Below are positions 1 to 43,843 of a DNA stretch of 64,000 bases, in pieces (position 1 is the first letter of the stretch; each line of letters starts with the position of its first letter). Source of the DNA: Flagellimonas hadalis (lineage in GTDB: Bacteria; Bacteroidota; Bacteroidia; Flavobacteriales; Flavobacteriaceae). The notes beneath the pieces are model-generated. The model searched no databases. It was not told the DNA's origin and saw only the letters and a list, made by a program, of their open reading frames with translations. The translations under genes were made by a program, and so were the position numbers. The DNA lies in assembly GCF_007785775.2 (NCBI RefSeq), contig NZ_VNIK02000001.1:794678-858677 (forward strand). Direction: 5' to 3'.

Positions 1-992
1 TTCTGGACAACATTAGAAAGTCCAAGGAAGTGTTCAAAAACAGTGGGGTGGTGATAGAAGATTTGGGCGATGGCATCCTAAATTGTGAATTCCAGTCCAA
101 AATGAACACCATCGGCGGCGATGTGCTCGCCGGTCTGAACAAGGCCATAGACCTGGCCGAAAAAGACTTCCAAGGACTCGTCGTCGGCAACCAAGCAGCG
201 AACTTCTCTGTTGGGGCCAATATCGGGATGATATTCATGATGGCCGTGGAGCAAGAGTATGATGAGCTGAACATGGCCATCAAAATGTTCCAGGACACCA
301 TGATGCGGATGCGCTACTCCTCCATCCCCACCATTTCTGCCCCACACGGCATGTGCTTGGGAGGTGGATGCGAACTTTCGCTCCATGCGGACAAAATTGT
401 GGCCGCTGCCGAGACCTATATCGGCTTGGTGGAATTTGGTGTCGGTGTGATTCCTGGCGGGGGTGGTTCCAAGGAAATGGCCCTTCGGGCATCCGATACT
501 TTTAGAAAAAATGATGTGGAACTGAACGTGCTCCAAGAATATTTCCTCACCATCGGAATGGCCAAGGTATCCACATCGGCATACGAAGCCTATGATTTGG
601 GCATCCTTCAAAAAGGAAAGGACATTGTGGTGGTAAACAAGGACCGTCAAATCGCAACGGCCAAGGCCCATGCCAAGCTCATGGCCGAAGCAGGATACAC
701 CAAACCCGTAAAACGCAAGGATGTAAAAGTACTTGGAAAACAAGCTTTGGGCATGTTCTTGGTGGGAACGGACTCCATGGAGGCCGGTCACTATATCTCC
801 GAACATGACAAGAAGATTGCCAACAAGTTGGCCTACGTGATGGCCGGAGGAGACCTATCGGAAGCTACTTTGGTCACCGAGCAATATCTTTTGGACCTTG
901 AGCGTGAAGCTTTCCTCTCCCTGTGTACCGAAAGGAAAACTTTGGAGCGTATCCAACATATGTTGAAAACGGGGAAACCACTGAGAAATTAG
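1..992 (+). CDS. 3-hydroxyacyl-CoA dehydrogenase / enoyl-CoA hydratase, C-terminal part (5' end outside window)
   Basis: This is the C-terminal part of a fatty-acid beta-oxidation multifunctional enzyme that hydrates enoyl-CoA and oxidises 3-hydroxyacyl-CoA in the cytoplasm. The frame is open to the first base of the window (codons before the GTG at 30 read LDNIRKSKE), so the gene begins upstream and the GTG is not its start. What is visible is a crotonase fold: an oxyanion-type segment around SVGANIGM, then HGMCLGGGCELSLHAD and the GVIPGGGGSKE turn. In Bacteroidota enzymes of this kind the dehydrogenase half lies N-terminal to the hydratase half, which fits what is missing here. A thiolase and an acyl-CoA dehydrogenase follow on the same strand, completing a beta-oxidation operon. 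Its stop codon (990-992) is itself the first bases of a heptamer repeat that leads into the next small gene. Confidence 0.9.
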   Translation, partial: LDNIRKSKEVFKNSGVVIEDLGDGILNCEFQSKMNTIGGDVLAGLNKAIDLAEKDFQGLVVGNQAANFSVGANIGMIFMMAVEQEYDELNMAIKMFQDTMMRMRYSSIPTISAPHGMCLGGGCELSLHADKIVAAAETYIGLVEFGVGVIPGGGGSKEMALRASDTFRKNDVELNVLQEYFLTIGMAKVSTSAYEAYDLGILQKGKDIVVVNKDRQIATAKAHAKLMAEAGYTKPVKRKDVKVLGKQALGMFLVGTDSMEAGHYISEHDKKIANKLAYVMAGGDLSEATLVTEQYLLDLEREAFLSLCTERKTLERIQHMLKTGKPLRN

Positions 993-1023
993 ACATAAGA
1001 CTTTTTGACGTAAGACATAAGAA
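990..1023. repeat. Degenerate heptamer array, left flank of first four-helix-bundle gene
   Basis: Between the upstream stop and the ATG at 1024 the bases read as AGACATA, AGACTTT, a single T, TGACGTA, AGACATA, AGAA. The reverse complement (TATGTCT, TACGTCA and so on) closely matches the array just after the small gene, making an inverted pair. Confidence 0.7.
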
Positions 1024-1389
1024 ATGGCGGCAAAACATAATTTTAGAAAGTTAACCATTTGGAAGGAAGGCATTGAATTGGTCAAAGAAACCTATAAGAG
1101 CACCAAAATTTTTCCCAAATCAGAGATCTATGGGCTATCCAATCAAATGCAGCGATGCTCCATATCAGTTCCTTCAAATATTGCAGAGGGAACCAGTAAA
1201 GGTTCAACAAAGCATTTTTTACAGTATTTGGAAAATGCTCTTGGTTCTGCATTTGAATGGGAGACACATCTCATTATTGCATTCGAAATTGGGTATGTTT
1301 CAGAAAGCACTTTCAATCATTTGGAAAATAAAATTCAATCAATACAAAAGATGATAACCCGGTTCATGGAAAATATTGTAAACCATTAG
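1024..1389 (+). CDS. Four-helix-bundle protein (bIVP / 23S rRNA intervening-sequence family)
   Basis: A 121-residue protein of the bIVP/S23-like four-helix-bundle family. It has the usual family landmarks: an N-terminal LTIWKEGIELVKETY helix, the central CSISVPSNIAEGTSKGS loop, and the FEWETHL helix. Family members occur inside 23S rRNA intervening sequences of some bacteria, as Avd proteins of diversity-generating retroelements, and very often as stand-alone genes of unknown function; nothing here indicates rRNA or a retroelement. It sits between two beta-oxidation genes, is visibly more AT-rich than both, and is bounded by inverted heptamer arrays at 990-1023 and 1390-1410. A clear paralogue lies at 2663-3019. 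I infer that it is an acquired cassette with no role in fatty-acid oxidation. Identification of the family is firm; function is unknown. Confidence 0.9.
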   Translation: MAAKHNFRKLTIWKEGIELVKETYKSTKIFPKSEIYGLSNQMQRCSISVPSNIAEGTSKGSTKHFLQYLENALGSAFEWETHLIIAFEIGYVSESTFNHLENKIQSIQKMITRFMENIVNH

Positions 1390-1410
1390 TCCTATGTCCT
1401 ACGTCTTATC
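1390..1410. repeat. Degenerate heptamer array, right flank of first four-helix-bundle gene
   Basis: Immediately after the stop codon come TCCTATG, TCCTACG and TCTTATC with exact 7-base spacing. TATGTCCTACGTC here matches TATGTCTTACGTC in the reverse complement of the left flank at 12 of 13 bases. Confidence 0.7.
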
Positions 1411-1433
1411 GTCATAAATCAATTAAAAGCAAG

Positions 1434-2624
1434 ATGAAAACAGCATATATCGTAAAAGCATACAGAACAGCAGTGGGCAAGGCCCCAAAGGGACTGTTCA
1501 GGTTCAAGAGACCGGACGAACTTGCGGCCGAGACCATTGAACACATGATGAAAGAACTTCCGCAGCTCGACAAAAAACGCATTGACGATGTCATTGTGGG
1601 CAACGCCATGCCCGAAGCCGAACAAGGACTCAACATGGCCAGACTCATCTCCTTGATGGGCTTGGACATCGATGACGTACCTGGAGTGACCGTCAACCGT
1701 TACTGTGCATCGGGATTGGAAACGATTGGGATCGCCACGGCCAAGATCCAATCCGGAATGGCCGATTGCATCATTGCCGGAGGAGCAGAGAGTATGAGCT
1801 ACATCCCCATGGGCGGTTACAAGCCCACCCCCGACTATGCCACGGCCAAAGAAGGGCACGAGGATTATTATTGGGGCATGGGGCTCACCGCAGAAGCAGT
1901 GGCCAAACAGTTCAAGGTGTCCAGGGAAGACCAAGATGTTTTCGCCTACAATTCCCATATGAAAGCCTTGAAGGCCCAAGAAGAAAACAGGTTCCAGGAA
2001 CAGATCGTTCCCATAGAAGTGGAGCACACATTCGTGAACGAGGCGGGCAAAAAAGAGACCAAGACCTACACCGTGAACAAGGATGAAGGGCCACGCAAGG
2101 ACACCAACATCCCTACATTGAACAAGTTAAGACCTGTTTTTGCTGCTGATGGAAGTGTCACTGCCGGGAATTCCTCCCAAATGAGCGATGGAGCGGCTTT
2201 CGTCATGGTCATGAGTGAAGACATGGTCAAGGAACTGAATTTGGAACCCATTGCCCGATTGGTCAACTATGCTGCAGCAGGTGTGGAACCGAGGATTATG
2301 GGAATTGGCCCCGTGAAAGCCATTCCAAAAGCATTGAAACAGGCAGGGTTGAAACAAAGTGACATTGATCTAATAGAGCTGAACGAAGCCTTTGCATCAC
2401 AATCCTTGGCCGTGATCCGCGAACTGGACCTCAATCCGGAAATTGTGAACGTGAACGGAGGCGCCATTGCCTTGGGCCACCCCCTCGGATGTACTGGGGC
2501 CAAGCTTTCCGTCCAGCTTTTTGATGAAATGCGCAAGCGCAACATGAAAGGCCAGTACGGCATGGTGACCATGTGTGTGGGCACAGGTCAGGGAGCTGCG
2601 GGGATATTTGAGTTTTTGAACTAA
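1434..2624 (+). CDS. fadA: Acetyl-CoA C-acyltransferase (thiolase)
   Basis: A 396-residue thiolase, the usual family length, that cleaves 3-ketoacyl-CoA with CoA to give acetyl-CoA and a shortened acyl-CoA. The nucleophilic Cys91 lies in [10 protein letters not shown], the catalytic His349 in [12 protein letters not shown], and the second Cys381 in [11 protein letters not shown]; the LNEAFASQS motif is also present, so all catalytic elements are intact. It lies 44 bases after the first four-helix-bundle gene and is followed by the second, then by the acyl-CoA dehydrogenase, so the three enzymes would form an ordinary beta-oxidation operon without the two inserts. The start [15 protein letters not shown] is the normal thiolase N-terminus. 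Confidence 0.95.
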
Positions 2625-2628
2625 TCAC

Positions 2629-2662
2629 AAGAACCGGGAGCCAAGAAACAAGAACCAAGACG
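2629..2662. repeat. Heptamer array, left flank of second four-helix-bundle gene
   Basis: Bases before the ATG at 2663 divide exactly into AAGAACC, GGGAGCC, AAGAAAC, AAGAACC, AAGACG. The reverse complement reads TCTTGGT, TCTTGTT, TCTTGGC, TCCCGGT: the same heptamer type as the right flank, in inverted orientation. Confidence 0.75.
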
Positions 2663-3019
2663 ATGGGAAGACATAATTTCAAAAAACTCAAAATCTGGCA
2701 AGAAGCAATGGACCTGGTGAAGGAAACGTATAAAATAATTGGTGGATTTCCCGATGTAGAAAGATTCAACCTTTCTTCCCAATTAATTCGTTGCGCTGTT
2801 TCAATTCCTTCAAATATAGCGGAGGGAACCAGCAAATCAACAAACAAGCATTTCAATAAATATATTGAGAATAGCCTTGGTTCTAGTTTTGAGTGGGAAA
2901 CGCAATTAATTGTTGCATCGGATCAGAATTATATTTCCAAAGAAAAATTTGAACTTTTAGAGTCTAAAATCCAACAACTACAAAAAATGATCTCAAGGTT
3001 TCAAGATGGTTTAAAGTAA
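2663..3019 (+). CDS. Four-helix-bundle protein (bIVP family), second copy
   Basis: A 118-residue paralogue of the product of 1024-1389, sharing the same landmarks: LKIWQEAMDLVKETYK, CAVSIPSNIAEGTSK, SSFEWETQLIVAS and a C-terminal KIQQLQKMISRF helix. About half of the residues are identical on visual alignment, so the two copies are not a recent tandem duplication and were probably acquired separately or have diverged for some time. It separates the thiolase from the acyl-CoA dehydrogenase and is AT-rich relative to both. Exact 7-base-period arrays lie on both sides (2629-2662 and 3021-3055). Function is unknown. Confidence 0.9.
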   Translation: MGRHNFKKLKIWQEAMDLVKETYKIIGGFPDVERFNLSSQLIRCAVSIPSNIAEGTSKSTNKHFNKYIENSLGSSFEWETQLIVASDQNYISKEKFELLESKIQQLQKMISRFQDGLK

Positions 3020-3020
3020 G

Positions 3021-3055
3021 TCCTGATTCTTGTCTCCTGAATCTTAAATCTTATA
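3021..3055. repeat. Heptamer array, right flank of second four-helix-bundle gene
   Basis: Five successive heptamers follow the stop codon: TCCTGAT, TCTTGTC, TCCTGAA, TCTTAAA, TCTTATA. All begin TC(C/T)T, with no break in the 7-base register. The next gene starts 4 bases later, at 3060. Confidence 0.75.
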
Positions 3056-3059
3056 AAGT

Positions 3060-4871
3060 ATGAGCACAGAAACAACAAACAAAGACATCCTCAGAGGTGG
3101 TCAATTTTTGGTCAAGGAGACCAAGTGCGAGGATATTTTCACCCTCGAAGACCTCAACGAAGAACAAAAAATGATGCGCGAAAGCACCAAGGAATTTGTG
3201 GACCGCGAACTTTGGGCACATTGGGAACGCTTTGAGAAAAAAGACTATGCCTACACCGAGGAATGCATGCGAAAAGCCGGGGAGCTTGGGCTGCTCAGTG
3301 TTGCCGTTCCCGAATCCTACGGCGGCATGGGCATGGGATTTGTTTCCACCATGCTGGTCTGTGATTACATTTCGGGGGCCACTGGTTCTTTCAGTACCGC
3401 ATTTGGGGCCCACACGGGAATAGGCACCATGCCCATCACCTTGTACGGGACCGAGGAGCAGAAACAAAAATACGTACCCAGATTGGCCTCTGGGGAATGG
3501 TTCGGCGCCTACTGTTTGACCGAGCCAGGGGCAGGTTCCGATGCCAATTCGGGCAAGACCAAGGCCGTGCTTTCGGAAGATGGGAAATATTATAGCATCA
3601 CCGGACAAAAAATGTGGATCTCCAATGCAGGGTTCTGCAATATGTTCATCGTCTTTGCCCGAATCGAGGACGACAAATACATTACAGGTTTTATTGTGGA
3701 AAATGACCCGGAAAATGGCATCACCTTAGGTGATGAAGAGAAAAAACTGGGCATCCACTCCTCCTCTACCCGCCAAGTGTTCTTCAATGAGACCAAAGTG
3801 CCGGTAGAAAATATGTTGTCCGAAAGGGGAAATGGTTTCAAAATAGCCATGAATGCTTTGAACATTGGACGGATCAAATTGGCGGCGGCCTGTTTGGAAG
3901 CACAACGTCGTGTGCTCAATGAGGCGACAAAATATGCCAATGAGCGTATCCAATTCAAGACCCCCATCATGAATTTTGGTGCCATAAAGGCCAAAATTGC
4001 CGATATGGCCACCAATGCCTATGTGGATGAAGCTGCTTGCTATCGAGCCGCCAAGAACATTGAGGACAGGATTGCCATTCGAGAGTCAGAAGGCAACTCG
4101 CACCAAGAAGCGGAACTCAAGGGTGTCGAAGAATACGCCATAGAATGCTCCATTTTGAAGGTGGCCGTTTCCGAACACGTGCAACACACCACCGATGAAG
4201 GTATCCAGATTTTTGGCGGAATGGGCTTCAGTGCCGATACTCCCATGGAATCCGCTTGGAGGGATGCACGAATCTCCAGAATTTACGAGGGAACGAACGA
4301 AATCAACAGAATGCTGGCAGTGGGCATGCTCATCAAGAAAGCAATGAAGGGCCATGTGGACCTCTTGGGGCCAGCTACAGCCGTTGGTGAGGAATTGATG
4401 GGCATTCCTTCTTTCGACACGCCCGATTTCTCCGAACTGTTCGCAGAGGAAAAGGACATGGTGGCCCGCTTGAAAAAAGTATTCTTGATGGTTGCGGGGA
4501 GCGCCGTACAAAAATTTGGGCCCGATCTGGACGAACACCAAATGTTGTTGATGTCAGCCGCTGACATCCTCATTCAAGTCTATTTGGCCGAATCGGCCAT
4601 CCTTCGCACCGAGAAAAACGCCAAACGTTTTGGCGAAGAGGCACAAGTTGCACAGATAGCCATGTCCAAACTGTATCTGTATCGAGCCGTGGACATCATC
4701 AGCCAAAAAGGAAAAGAAGCCATCGTTTCATTTGCCGAAGGGGATGAACAACGGATGATGCTGATGGGACTGAAACGCTTTACCAAATATACAAACCAAC
4801 CCAATGTGGTGGCACTGCGCACACAAATTGCCGACAAAGTAGCCGCTGACAATGGGTATACCTTTGACTAA
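3060..4871 (+). CDS. Acyl-CoA dehydrogenase
   Basis: A 603-residue FAD-dependent acyl-CoA dehydrogenase catalysing the first step of beta-oxidation. It shows the N-terminal helical domain, the flavin-binding ACD signatures (CLTEPGAGSDANS, KMWISNAGFCNMF), GIHSSSTRQVFF, and the catalytic-base region RISRIYEGTNEINRML with the Glu of YEGT. The C-terminal extension of roughly 180 residues beyond the core is typical of the longer Bacteroidota and very-long-chain-type enzymes. It is the last gene of the beta-oxidation operon and is followed by a strong intrinsic terminator at 4905-4930. Substrate chain length cannot be read from sequence. Confidence 0.95.
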   Translation: MSTETTNKDILRGGQFLVKETKCEDIFTLEDLNEEQKMMRESTKEFVDRELWAHWERFEKKDYAYTEECMRKAGELGLLSVAVPESYGGMGMGFVSTMLVCDYISGATGSFSTAFGAHTGIGTMPITLYGTEEQKQKYVPRLASGEWFGAYCLTEPGAGSDANSGKTKAVLSEDGKYYSITGQKMWISNAGFCNMFIVFARIEDDKYITGFIVENDPENGITLGDEEKKLGIHSSSTRQVFFNETKVPVENMLSERGNGFKIAMNALNIGRIKLAAACLEAQRRVLNEATKYANERIQFKTPIMNFGAIKAKIADMATNAYVDEAACYRAAKNIEDRIAIRESEGNSHQEAELKGVEEYAIECSILKVAVSEHVQHTTDEGIQIFGGMGFSADTPMESAWRDARISRIYEGTNEINRMLAVGMLIKKAMKGHVDLLGPATAVGEELMGIPSFDTPDFSELFAEEKDMVARLKKVFLMVAGSAVQKFGPDLDEHQMLLMSAADILIQVYLAESAILRTEKNAKRFGEEAQVAQIAMSKLYLYRAVDIISQKGKEAIVSFAEGDEQRMMLMGLKRFTKYTNQPNVVALRTQIADKVAADNGYTFD

Positions 4872-28503: not shown

Positions 28504-28601
28504 TGTTCGATTGTTTTTTGATTACACTGTAAAATTCGCAATACGCCTCGAGGAGTGAAAAAGTAGTTTCCTGGACTGTTGTTTTTGGGGGATGAACTGT
28601 G

Positions 28602-28702
28602 GGGTCTAGGGTCTAGGGTCTAGGGTCTAGGGTCTAGGGTCTAGGGTCTAGGGTCTAGGGTCTAGGGTCTAGGGTCTAGGGTCTAGGGTCTAGGGTCTAG
28701 GG
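28602..28702. repeat. Perfect (GGGTCTA)14 tandem array, telomere-like
   Basis: Fourteen perfect copies of GGGTCTA span 28602-28699, followed by GGG to 28702. It lies between the kinase gene (stop at 28789) and the first 2TM gene (start 28503), both on the minus strand. The + strand has 15 GGG tracts with 4-base TCTA loops, an ideal G-quadruplex pattern. Such an array contains 14 CTAG tetramers, which are rare in most bacterial DNA. Copy number could vary by slippage. The unit read as TCTAGGG resembles the TCTTGNN heptamers flanking the bIVP genes. Confidence 0.95.
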
Positions 28703-28788
28703 AAAATACAAAATTGGAAGAAACGAACTTGTTCTTGACATTTTAGTTGAACTTGAGCTTGAAATTGGACCTCCCCTTTAATCCTTCC

Positions 28789-42934: not shown

Positions 42935-43042
42935 CAGGAAGTTTCTTTTTTAGAATTATTGGTAATTGGTTTCCAGAGGGTTTAAATGAAAAATTGGATG
43001 TCAAGTTTTGAAACCTAACATCCAACTTCTTTTGATCTAGTT

Positions 43043-43843
43043 CTAAAATCGGTTGTCCCCGTCCAGCAAATTGCCCAATCCGCCCAAGATACTACCCTCG
43101 CCCTTGTCCTTTCCGCCCCCTTTTGGAGCGGCGGCCCATACGCGGCCGGCCAATCGGCTGAATGGCAAGGATTGGACATAAACGGTTCCTGGTCCACGAA
43201 GTGTGGCAAAGAAGAGGCCTTCCCCGCCGAACACGGTATTTTTGATGCCACCCACAAATTCGATGTCGTAGTCCACGGTCTGGGAAAAGCCCACGATACA
43301 GCCCGTGTCCACTTTGAGCACCTCACCTGGGGCCAATGTTTTTTTCGCCATGGTCCCGCCTGCGTGCACAAAGGCCATACCATCGCCTTCCAGTTTTTGC
43401 ATGATGAAACCTTCACCGCCAAAGAAACCCCGGCCCAAGCGTCTGGAGAACTCAATCCCTACGGAAACACCCTTGGCCGCGCAAAGGAAGGCATCTTTTT
43501 GGCAGATGAACTTCCCTCCTTTTTCCGAAAGGTCTATGGGTATGATCTTGCCCGGATAGGGTGAAGCAAAGCTTACGTTCTTTTTGCCGTGGCCAATATT
43601 GAGGAAAGCGGTCATGAACAAGCTTTCACCCGTGAGCAAGCGCTTGCCCGCGGAGAACAGTTTGCCCAAAACCCCAGTGTCCTGATTGGAACCGTCCCCG
43701 AAGATGGTATCCATTTTGATATCGGAATCCATCATCATAAAACTGCCCGCTTCCGCTATGACAGCTTCTTGGGGATCCAGCTCGATCTCCACATATTGCA
43801 TTTCCTCCCCGTAAATGTGATAGTCGATTTCGTGTGCGTTCAT
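43043..43843 (-). CDS. TIGR00266 / AIM24-family protein
   Basis: A 266-residue cytoplasmic protein with a double-psi-like beta structure: [34 protein letters not shown] (first strands), [71 protein letters not shown], and the typical [25 protein letters not shown] end. AIM24 relatives occur from bacteria to mitochondria; the function is not known. The ATG is preceded by two ATCAAAAAA stretches. A 99-base gap separates it from the S41 gene. Confidence 0.9.

Follow-up and report, generated by a model that had tools for sequence, protein, structure and literature searches.

Why should a beta-oxidation operon carry, in the gaps between its genes, two small genes for four-helix-bundle proteins of the bIVP type, each bounded by short tandem heptamers? 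The question arises at the start of a 64,000-nucleotide stretch of Flagellimonas hadalis DNA (assembly GCF_007785775.2, contig NZ_VNIK02000001.1, positions 794,678 to 858,677 of the forward strand), here called the window. One bIVP gene lies in the gap between the FadB-like and thiolase genes of the beta-oxidation (fad) operon (gap 1) and the other in that between the thiolase and acyl-CoA dehydrogenase genes (gap 2). The answer that we consider probable is that each bIVP gene, together with its two inverted heptamer arms, forms a single cassette of about 430 nucleotides (nt), belonging to the class of the intervening sequences (IVSs) and situated between two cistrons of an operon, for which release, binding of the arms and homing-like spread are proposed. 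Sequence comparison demonstrated the anatomy of this cassette, its wide occurrence, purifying selection on its gene, its all-or-none presence, sense orientation and exchange at fixed gaps, and the existence of gene-less palindromic forms.

Anatomy of the cassettes and of related loci

Both small genes were assigned to PF05635 (E 2.1e-37 and 1.8e-36; 128 and 125 bits, cut-off 33.8) and to TIGR02436 (117.6 and 112.1 bits, cut-off 24), and a Pfam scan of the two proteins returned PF05635 and no further domain. Their structural relatives are 2gsc (XCC0516; E 3.5e-19 for gene 1) and 2rld, with five chains each; PMC4990558 and PMC10053308 give X. campestris as the organism of 2gsc. Phage records contained no match to gene 1. 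All features of the locus lie on the forward strand. Cassette 1 follows the 3' part of the FadB-like gene (30–992; Pfam ECH_1, open reading frame list) and is made up of a left arm (991–1023; AGACATA AGACTTT T TGACGTA AGACATA AGAA), bIVP gene 1 (1024–1389; 121 amino acids, isoelectric point (pI) 8.7) and a right arm that is the inverse complement of the left (1390–1425; TCCTATG TCCTACG TCTTATC and further bases). The FadA-like thiolase gene (1434–2624; Pfam Thiolase_N and Thiolase_C) separates it from cassette 2, in which a left arm (2627–2662; AAGAACC GGGAGCC AAGAAAC AAGAACC AAGACG), bIVP gene 2 (2663–3019; 118 amino acids, pI 9.0) and a right arm (3020–3056; TCCTGAT TCTTGTC TCCTGAA TCTTAAA TCTTATA) precede the acyl-CoA dehydrogenase gene (acd; 3060–4871, Pfam).

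Matches at a lag of seven nucleotides numbered 14/26 and 14/29 in the left and right arms of cassette 1 and 18/29 and 19/30 in those of cassette 2, values reached by 7, 26, 2 and 1 of 2000 dinucleotide shuffles, respectively. For the inverted match between left and right arms (27 nt in cassette 1, 25 nt in cassette 2), 6 and 1 of 2000 shuffles scored as high, as did 0 and 1 of 2000 random places that kept the spacing of the arms, and when the inverted flanks of 620 start/stop combinations of the window were ranked, the two bIVP genes took ranks 1 and 2. An earlier, sequence-only reading of the window had placed the two genes between metabolic neighbours, quoted their heptamers and described each left flank as the inverse complement type of the right. 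The open reading frame list and Pfam agreed with this placement, every quoted heptamer is present, the left array of cassette 1 including one 8-nt step, and the inverted relation was confirmed for both genes. The arms are degenerate: they were missed by a stricter tract scan (lag-7 match of 0.73 over 26 nt) and are absent from a general repeat listing of the window, and a single fixed pattern derived from cassette 2 was weak when used alone, giving one match where 16 of 100 shuffles also had one. At the stricter threshold a single period-7 tract was called in the window, at 28591–28719, where about 15 tandem (GGGTCTA)n units without a bIVP gene are followed by looser CTTGAA-type units. An open reading frame at 43015–43383 with weak inverted flanks matched nothing in Pfam and is probably a chance occurrence.

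Relatives were collected by scanning 84,980 species genomes with the motif S[IVM][PA][SA]NIAEG, which returned at least 573. The best 80 by likeness to window gene 1 (the named loci, 23 of them at fad sites) came mostly from Bacteroidota, and also from records titled Elusimicrobia, Planctomycetota, Clostridia, Anaerolineae and Fibrobacteres, from several candidate phyla and from two Methanophagales archaea. With flanks of 70 nt, 79 of these loci were usable in the lag test and 77 in the inverted test; rule-based assignment of start codons, in some cases to the wrong position, makes the left-flank statistics weaker. Lag-7 match was 0.404 on the left and 0.409 on the right (n = 79 each), against 0.311 and 0.319 in control flanks (n = 83 and 69) that were taken from the same loci and may themselves hold other arrays. 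Multiples of seven were also raised (lag 14, 0.367 and 0.359; lag 21, 0.345 and 0.328, left and right), there was a small extra peak at lag 8 (0.317 and 0.312), and most other lags gave 0.27–0.30. When lags 4–12 were ranked in each flank, with ties shared, lag 7 came first on the left in 45.0 of 79 and on the right in 52.4 of 79; the corresponding control counts were 16.0 of 83 and 11.5 of 69. The excess of period 7 that the sequence-only reading had suggested looking for around other bIVP genes was therefore found.

For the inverted test, each left flank scored 15.9 against its own inverted right flank and 9.0 when mispaired (permutation z 25); z against shuffles had a median of 4.6 and exceeded 3 in 52 of the 77 loci. 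High values were also obtained outside Bacteroidota, in loci of Sedimentisphaerales (L174, 15.8), Clostridia (L151, 14.7), Methanophagales (L166, 9.5) and Planctomycetota (L138, 8.0). The Elusimicrobia locus (L122) had no matching inverted arms (z −0.3), and its bIVP domain (match at 1501–1839) was called inside a much longer open frame of 437 amino acids. On plasmids (seven cyanobacterial loci and one from Riemerella), inverted z exceeded 3 in 5 of 8, and a Nostoc edaphicum plasmid gene is bracketed by GGGAGTA/GGGGAGT arrays (z 13.1). On a Pseudanabaena plasmid (L190), a bIVP gene at 1495–1854 lies between cas6 and cas4 amid long AGCTAAA/AGCCAAA arrays, by appearance mostly in the same orientation on both sides.

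Heptamer word and protein family were found to go together. In a set of 138 non-redundant loci (183 were usable), the excess of array likeness was 8 to 15 for proteins above 60% identity, 1.6 and 2.2 at 50–60% and near background below 50%, and the two arms belonging to a single element stayed matched (excess 4.69 inverted, 1.21 direct). Because arrays are alike only between similar proteins and each element's own arms match, the word differs between families while an element's arms keep their likeness. The proteins are mostly basic, with pI above 8 in 100 of 183 and below 6 in 10 of 183. PF05635 genes number 7 in the window's own genome and 1 to 15 in 69 of 71 genomes of the genus. One of those in the own genome (L006, contig C54, about 1480–1833), with one in-frame TGA and about four AAATCCA heptamers upstream, has the look of a decaying cassette; after another (L007), CTTGAA-like hexamers were seen by eye, so that unit length is not always 7.

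Occupancy and exchange at the fad gaps

A thiolase was found in 70 of the 71 genus genomes, and all 70 fad loci were examined. Gap 1 held a bIVP gene in 24 of these (423–446 nt; protein family A in 7, family B in 17), was gene-less in 32 (40–86 nt) and empty in 11 (1 nt), and had other inserts in 2 and an undeterminable state in 1. Gap 2 held a gene in 34 (412–450 nt; families A 17, C 14 and D 3), was gene-less in 7 (79–146 nt) and empty in 27 (14–25 nt), with one other insert and one undeterminable case. The gene-less ("array") state is defined here by gap length alone (40–146 nt in the genus, 36–199 nt in other genera); gap 2 of L090 was scored as "other" though its start resembles a bIVP gene, and a broken gene in gap 2 of L053 was scored as a gene. 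For the wider family, the table comprised 89 of 148 genomes with a thiolase match, 159 having been searched. In these other genera, gap 1 contained a gene in 18, was gene-less in 34 (36–199 nt) and empty in 37, and gap 2 contained a gene in 16, was gene-less in 34 and empty in 35, and had other inserts in 4; all 34 of the bIVP genes run in the operon direction. The empty sites that the earlier reading had thought worth seeking at this locus thus exist within the genus. On the thiolase tree, which came from a quick search and has many open forks, at least 22 changes of state were counted at gap 1 (67 rows) and at least 32 at gap 2 (68 rows).

Gene-less gaps of 40–150 nt retained period 7, with a match of 0.443 in 39 genus gaps (lag 8, 0.396) and 0.400 in 66 family gaps, and folded as hairpins (z < −2 in 33/39 and 39/66, respectively). 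Gene-less palindromic arrays of the AAGA type occurred at 22 places in 18 of the 71 genomes. Fad gap 1 accounts for 8 of these places, and the other 14 lie outside it; a reversed pattern, used as control, gave none in the 71 genomes. Two gene-less stretches at gap 2 (L071 and L104) contain, as judged by eye, an apparent decayed 3' gene end, so that loss of the cassette in place does occur. Gap 1 of L055 and of L072 carries an insert of 601 and 545 nt, respectively, without a bIVP match, and this gap therefore also accepts other DNA. The coding ends at gap 1 were also considered: fadB ends with TTAAGAAA(C/T)TA at the empty gaps (11 of 11 genus cases) and with a CGN arginine codon at the family B gaps (17 of 17). 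These were left unused as evidence, since co-transfer or the ribosome-binding needs of fadA may explain them.

For the analysis of sites, 154 genus loci, a part of the copies in these genomes, were drawn from score-ordered lists, and sites were joined by likeness of neighbours. The loci fell into 14 protein families and 17 sites, and pairs at 60–70% identity were at different sites in 43 of 353 cases. Protein distances within family B at gap 1 did not follow those of the thiolase (fadA; Mantel 0.02, reached by 378 of 999 permutations). Nine gap-1 pairs (9 genomes) were selected for element identity at least 0.07 above that of the distal flanks; in these, the elements were 91–97% identical (0.93) and the fad genes 81–85% (distal flanks 0.83). 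Near flanks were taken as windows of 15–75 nt on the left and 36–96 nt on the right. On the left, near and distal identities were 0.870 and 0.830 (+0.040), against 0.822 and 0.796 in controls (+0.026); on the right they were 0.811 and 0.834 (−0.023), against 0.766 and 0.793 (−0.027). Agreement at fourfold sites was 22/29 in the bIVP gene and 59/163 in the thiolase for L077/L051, 22/28 and 67/166 for L075/L051, and 27/30 and 72/167 for L077/L075; it was less clear for L051 and a locus of another genus, L351 (9/24 and 47/146).

The window genome itself was compared with a near relative (G007), from which its three fad genes differ little, being mostly 92–100% identical per 60 nt with single stretches down to 0.85. 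The two genomes have cassette 1 in common and carry cassettes of different families at gap 2, where the last thiolase codons and the start of acd change along with the cassette. In a further near relative of the window genome (G085), the array at gap 1 is gene-less and unrelated.

Likeness to rRNA intervening sequences and a proposed mechanism

As judged by codon substitutions, the bIVP protein is under purifying selection, with median dN/dS of 0.05 to 0.13 in seven family/site groups (pairs with dS 0.05–1.5). In 69 of 88 named and plasmid loci both neighbours share the direction of the bIVP gene, and in 3 both are opposed to it; with the 23 fad loci removed, the figures are 48/65 and 3/65. 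This strong bias suggests reliance on host transcription. The minimum-energy folds of both window cassettes pair the left and right arms, with arm duplexes of −20.6 and −22.6 kcal/mol, and in 86 named and plasmid loci the median for an element's own arm duplex was −28.9, as compared with −17.7 for mispaired arms.

By analogy, the 23S rRNA IVS with its S23p gene is a closer parallel than RAYT genes and their repetitive extragenic palindromes (REPs). The IVS of Coxiella burnetii is described in PMC4990558 as 428/444 nt long, with terminal inverted repeats that form a 28-bp stem cut by RNase III, and as holding an S23p gene preceded by tandem GACAGAT heptamers whose copy number depends on the strain. 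As far as that description goes, the fad cassettes share its size (412–450 nt with a PF05635 gene), complementary termini, heptamers and S23p/PF05635-type protein, and these agreements are the grounds for reading them as IVS-class. Unlike a 23S rRNA IVS, they lie in the intercistronic gaps of a protein operon. They further differ from the Coxiella element in being exchanged at fixed gaps, with a gene under purifying selection, and in being known here from sequence alone.

Heptameric repeats have also been described elsewhere. PMC4692102 reports intergenic GGGAATC repeats of Xanthomonas, with 70 and 75 inverted pairs in two genomes, and intergenic GGGGA(C/T)T repeats of Nostoc, with few inverted pairs; "four helix", "S23" and "intervening" do not occur in its main text. 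The arrays on the Nostoc plasmid are similar, not identical, to the published Nostoc word (GGGGAGT does not occur there), and for Xanthomonas the structure 2gsc shows that X. campestris has a bIVP protein. Tandem 7-nt TAACTGA units of Beggiatoaceae, Cyanobacteria and Bacteroidetes, often just before start codons and patchy across strains, are interpreted in PMC4679880 as sites that a translational regulator might bind; as reported there they are mostly direct, unlike the inverted arms of the cassettes, and neither "S23" nor "four helix" occurs in the main text. A likeness between PF05635 and Avd, the protein of diversity-generating retroelements, is stated in PMC10053308. Here, gene 2 only gave a weak match to the NCBIfam model DivGenRetAVD (E 2.8e-6; 27.6 bits against a cut-off of 80), and unlike at Avd loci all three of the neighbouring genes that were scanned belong to the fad operon and the arms are not template or variable repeats. 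In the literature searched (openly licensed papers), no link between heptameric arrays and stand-alone bIVP genes was found by title or abstract. The protein family and the rRNA element are known; within that literature, what appears to be new is a cassette that lies in an operon, has family-specific arms and is exchanged.

On the IVS-class reading, the cassette would be transcribed from the host operon, with arms able to pair. RNase III could then excise it and leave both neighbouring messages usable, as published for rRNA IVSs, and such harmless excision between cistrons would account for the location in gaps. A mostly basic bIVP oligomer would bind its own heptamer arms, which would account for the heptamer word going with the protein family. 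The cassette would spread in a homing-like manner, entering the corresponding gap of a cell that has no cassette or a different one, and host recombination in the short coding ends next to that gap would perhaps finish the process. Where the gene is lost, a short palindromic heptamer array would be left. Release by RNase III is proposed on analogy, since the wobble and covariation tests described below gave no support; the arms could just as well function as DNA, bound there by the bIVP oligomer. Exchange could take either route, homing-like transfer or recombination at short coding ends.

Weighing the cassette against its alternatives

Several observations weigh against this reading or narrow it. 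At the level of RNA, the fold energy of the whole window cassettes is unremarkable and uninformative (z −1.4 and −1.6), and arm mismatches in sense RNA were A.C more often than G.U (50 named or plasmid loci, 55 to 37; 53 genus loci, 71 to 29), whereas selection for sense-RNA pairing would be expected to give the reverse. Of nine family/site groups tested for covariation between arms, four had no cross-arm pairs in the consensus and the others were reached by 25, 27, 80, 300 and, in one group, 9 of 300 permutations. Sense-RNA pairing of the arms as a selected feature was accordingly set aside, and it is kept by analogy. An Rfam scan of 35 loci (20 named, 15 own-genome or plasmid) gave no match, rRNA included. 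The arms themselves are not uniform: inverted z was 3 or less in 25 of the 77 named loci, 15 of these at 2 or less, and flanks were also directly similar (permutation z 10). Visual comparison of empty with occupied gaps, states that were taken from diverged genomes, revealed no target-site duplication, and no nuclease or recombinase was found. Within the genus the elements are site-bound, all 599 pairs at 70% identity or above occupying the same site. At gap 2, family C clearly tracks fadA (Mantel 0.72, 0 of 999 permutations) and family A follows it weakly (0.32, 7 of 999), so that part of the pattern is vertical. Elements were more alike than their distal flanks in 54 of 99 gap-1 and 80 of 190 gap-2 pairs with element identity of at least 0.72 (in some gap-2 pairs with L053 the distal window was out of register), so exchange is not general to every pair. 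Finally, in three selected gap-2 pairs the right flank was raised as well (0.889 and 0.939, against 0.844), from which it follows that ordinary recombination takes part.

In a possible, though less likely, account the loci have no mobility of their own: old intergenic bIVP genes would be swapped passively when conserved fad genes recombine homologously. The constancy of sites across genus and family, the vertical signal of family C, the raised right flanks at gap 2 and the few coding nucleotides that change on either side of the gap-2 cassette all fit it. What tells against it is the set of nine selected gap-1 pairs, in which elements at 0.93 are bordered by near flanks hardly above control expectation; both crossovers would have to fall close to the borders in DNA that is 81–85% identical. 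Passive exchange also leaves unexplained the heptamer arms and inverted symmetry at bIVP genes of other phyla.

Purifying selection and sense orientation in operons would also be expected of a resident regulator that binds the heptamer arrays, as DNA or mRNA, tunes the operon or itself and is kept for the benefit of the host, and the position of the arrays near start and stop codons and the recurrent occupancy of the fad gaps agree with this. We regard it as unlikely, because the same gaps are empty in a share of the genomes (gaps 1 and 2 in 11 and 27 of 70 in the genus and 37 and 35 of 89 in other genera) and because bIVP genes elsewhere have widely differing neighbours, on plasmids and at the 17 genus sites.

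The sequence-only reading had regarded each gene and its heptamer ends as a small cassette able to spread in the manner of RAYT genes and REPs. The cassette survives, as one unit that is wholly present or absent, is exchanged between species and has gene-less versions; dispersal of the RAYT/REP type does not, given that all close genus pairs are at the same site and that two fad gaps serve repeatedly as sites across the family. RAYT/REP systems are defined by a Y1 (HUH) transposase and REP palindromes, and neither bIVP protein has a Y1 (HUH) domain by Pfam. A DNA transposon, whether of this type or resembling a miniature inverted-repeat transposable element (MITE), with arms as terminal inverted repeats cut in trans and gene-less arrays as non-autonomous copies, would suit the inverted ends, the AAGA-type arrays at their 22 places and the basic proteins. 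It is nevertheless improbable: unlike MITEs or insertion sequences, the 154 genus loci include no dispersed near-identical copies (0 of the 599 pairs at different sites), end sequences differ between families, the two gap-2 stretches with apparent gene remnants point to loss in place, and PF05635 is the only domain of the two proteins. Chance or mutational bias, by which slippage in intergenic DNA would generate tandem heptamers, is very improbable even though gene-less tracts such as that at 28591–28719 exist, since period 7 and its multiples exceed the control flanks, the two sides match inverted, and equal periodicity was looked for and not found in the 83 and 69 control flanks.

Beyond the fad operon, we tentatively suggest, at somewhat less than even confidence, that the IVS-class cassettes represent a widespread and so far unrecognised class of bacterial, perhaps also archaeal, mobile cassette, composed of a bIVP gene and family-specific inverted arms and inserted in a homing-like manner, in sense, at fixed intercistronic gaps. 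The 23S rRNA IVSs would be its ribosomal branch and orphan heptameric repeats its gene-less remains; such remains are seen at the fad gaps, and perhaps the repeats of Nostoc, Xanthomonas and Beggiatoa are of the same kind, a link to cyanobacteria, xanthomonads and Beggiatoaceae that is conjecture. A class of this kind would join stand-alone four-helix-bundle genes of no known function, rRNA IVSs and heptameric intergenic repeats. It would provide the bIVP family with a candidate ligand, namely its own heptamer arms. It also delimits a small cassette, for which the neighbouring genes provide a reference when its transfer between species is to be dated.

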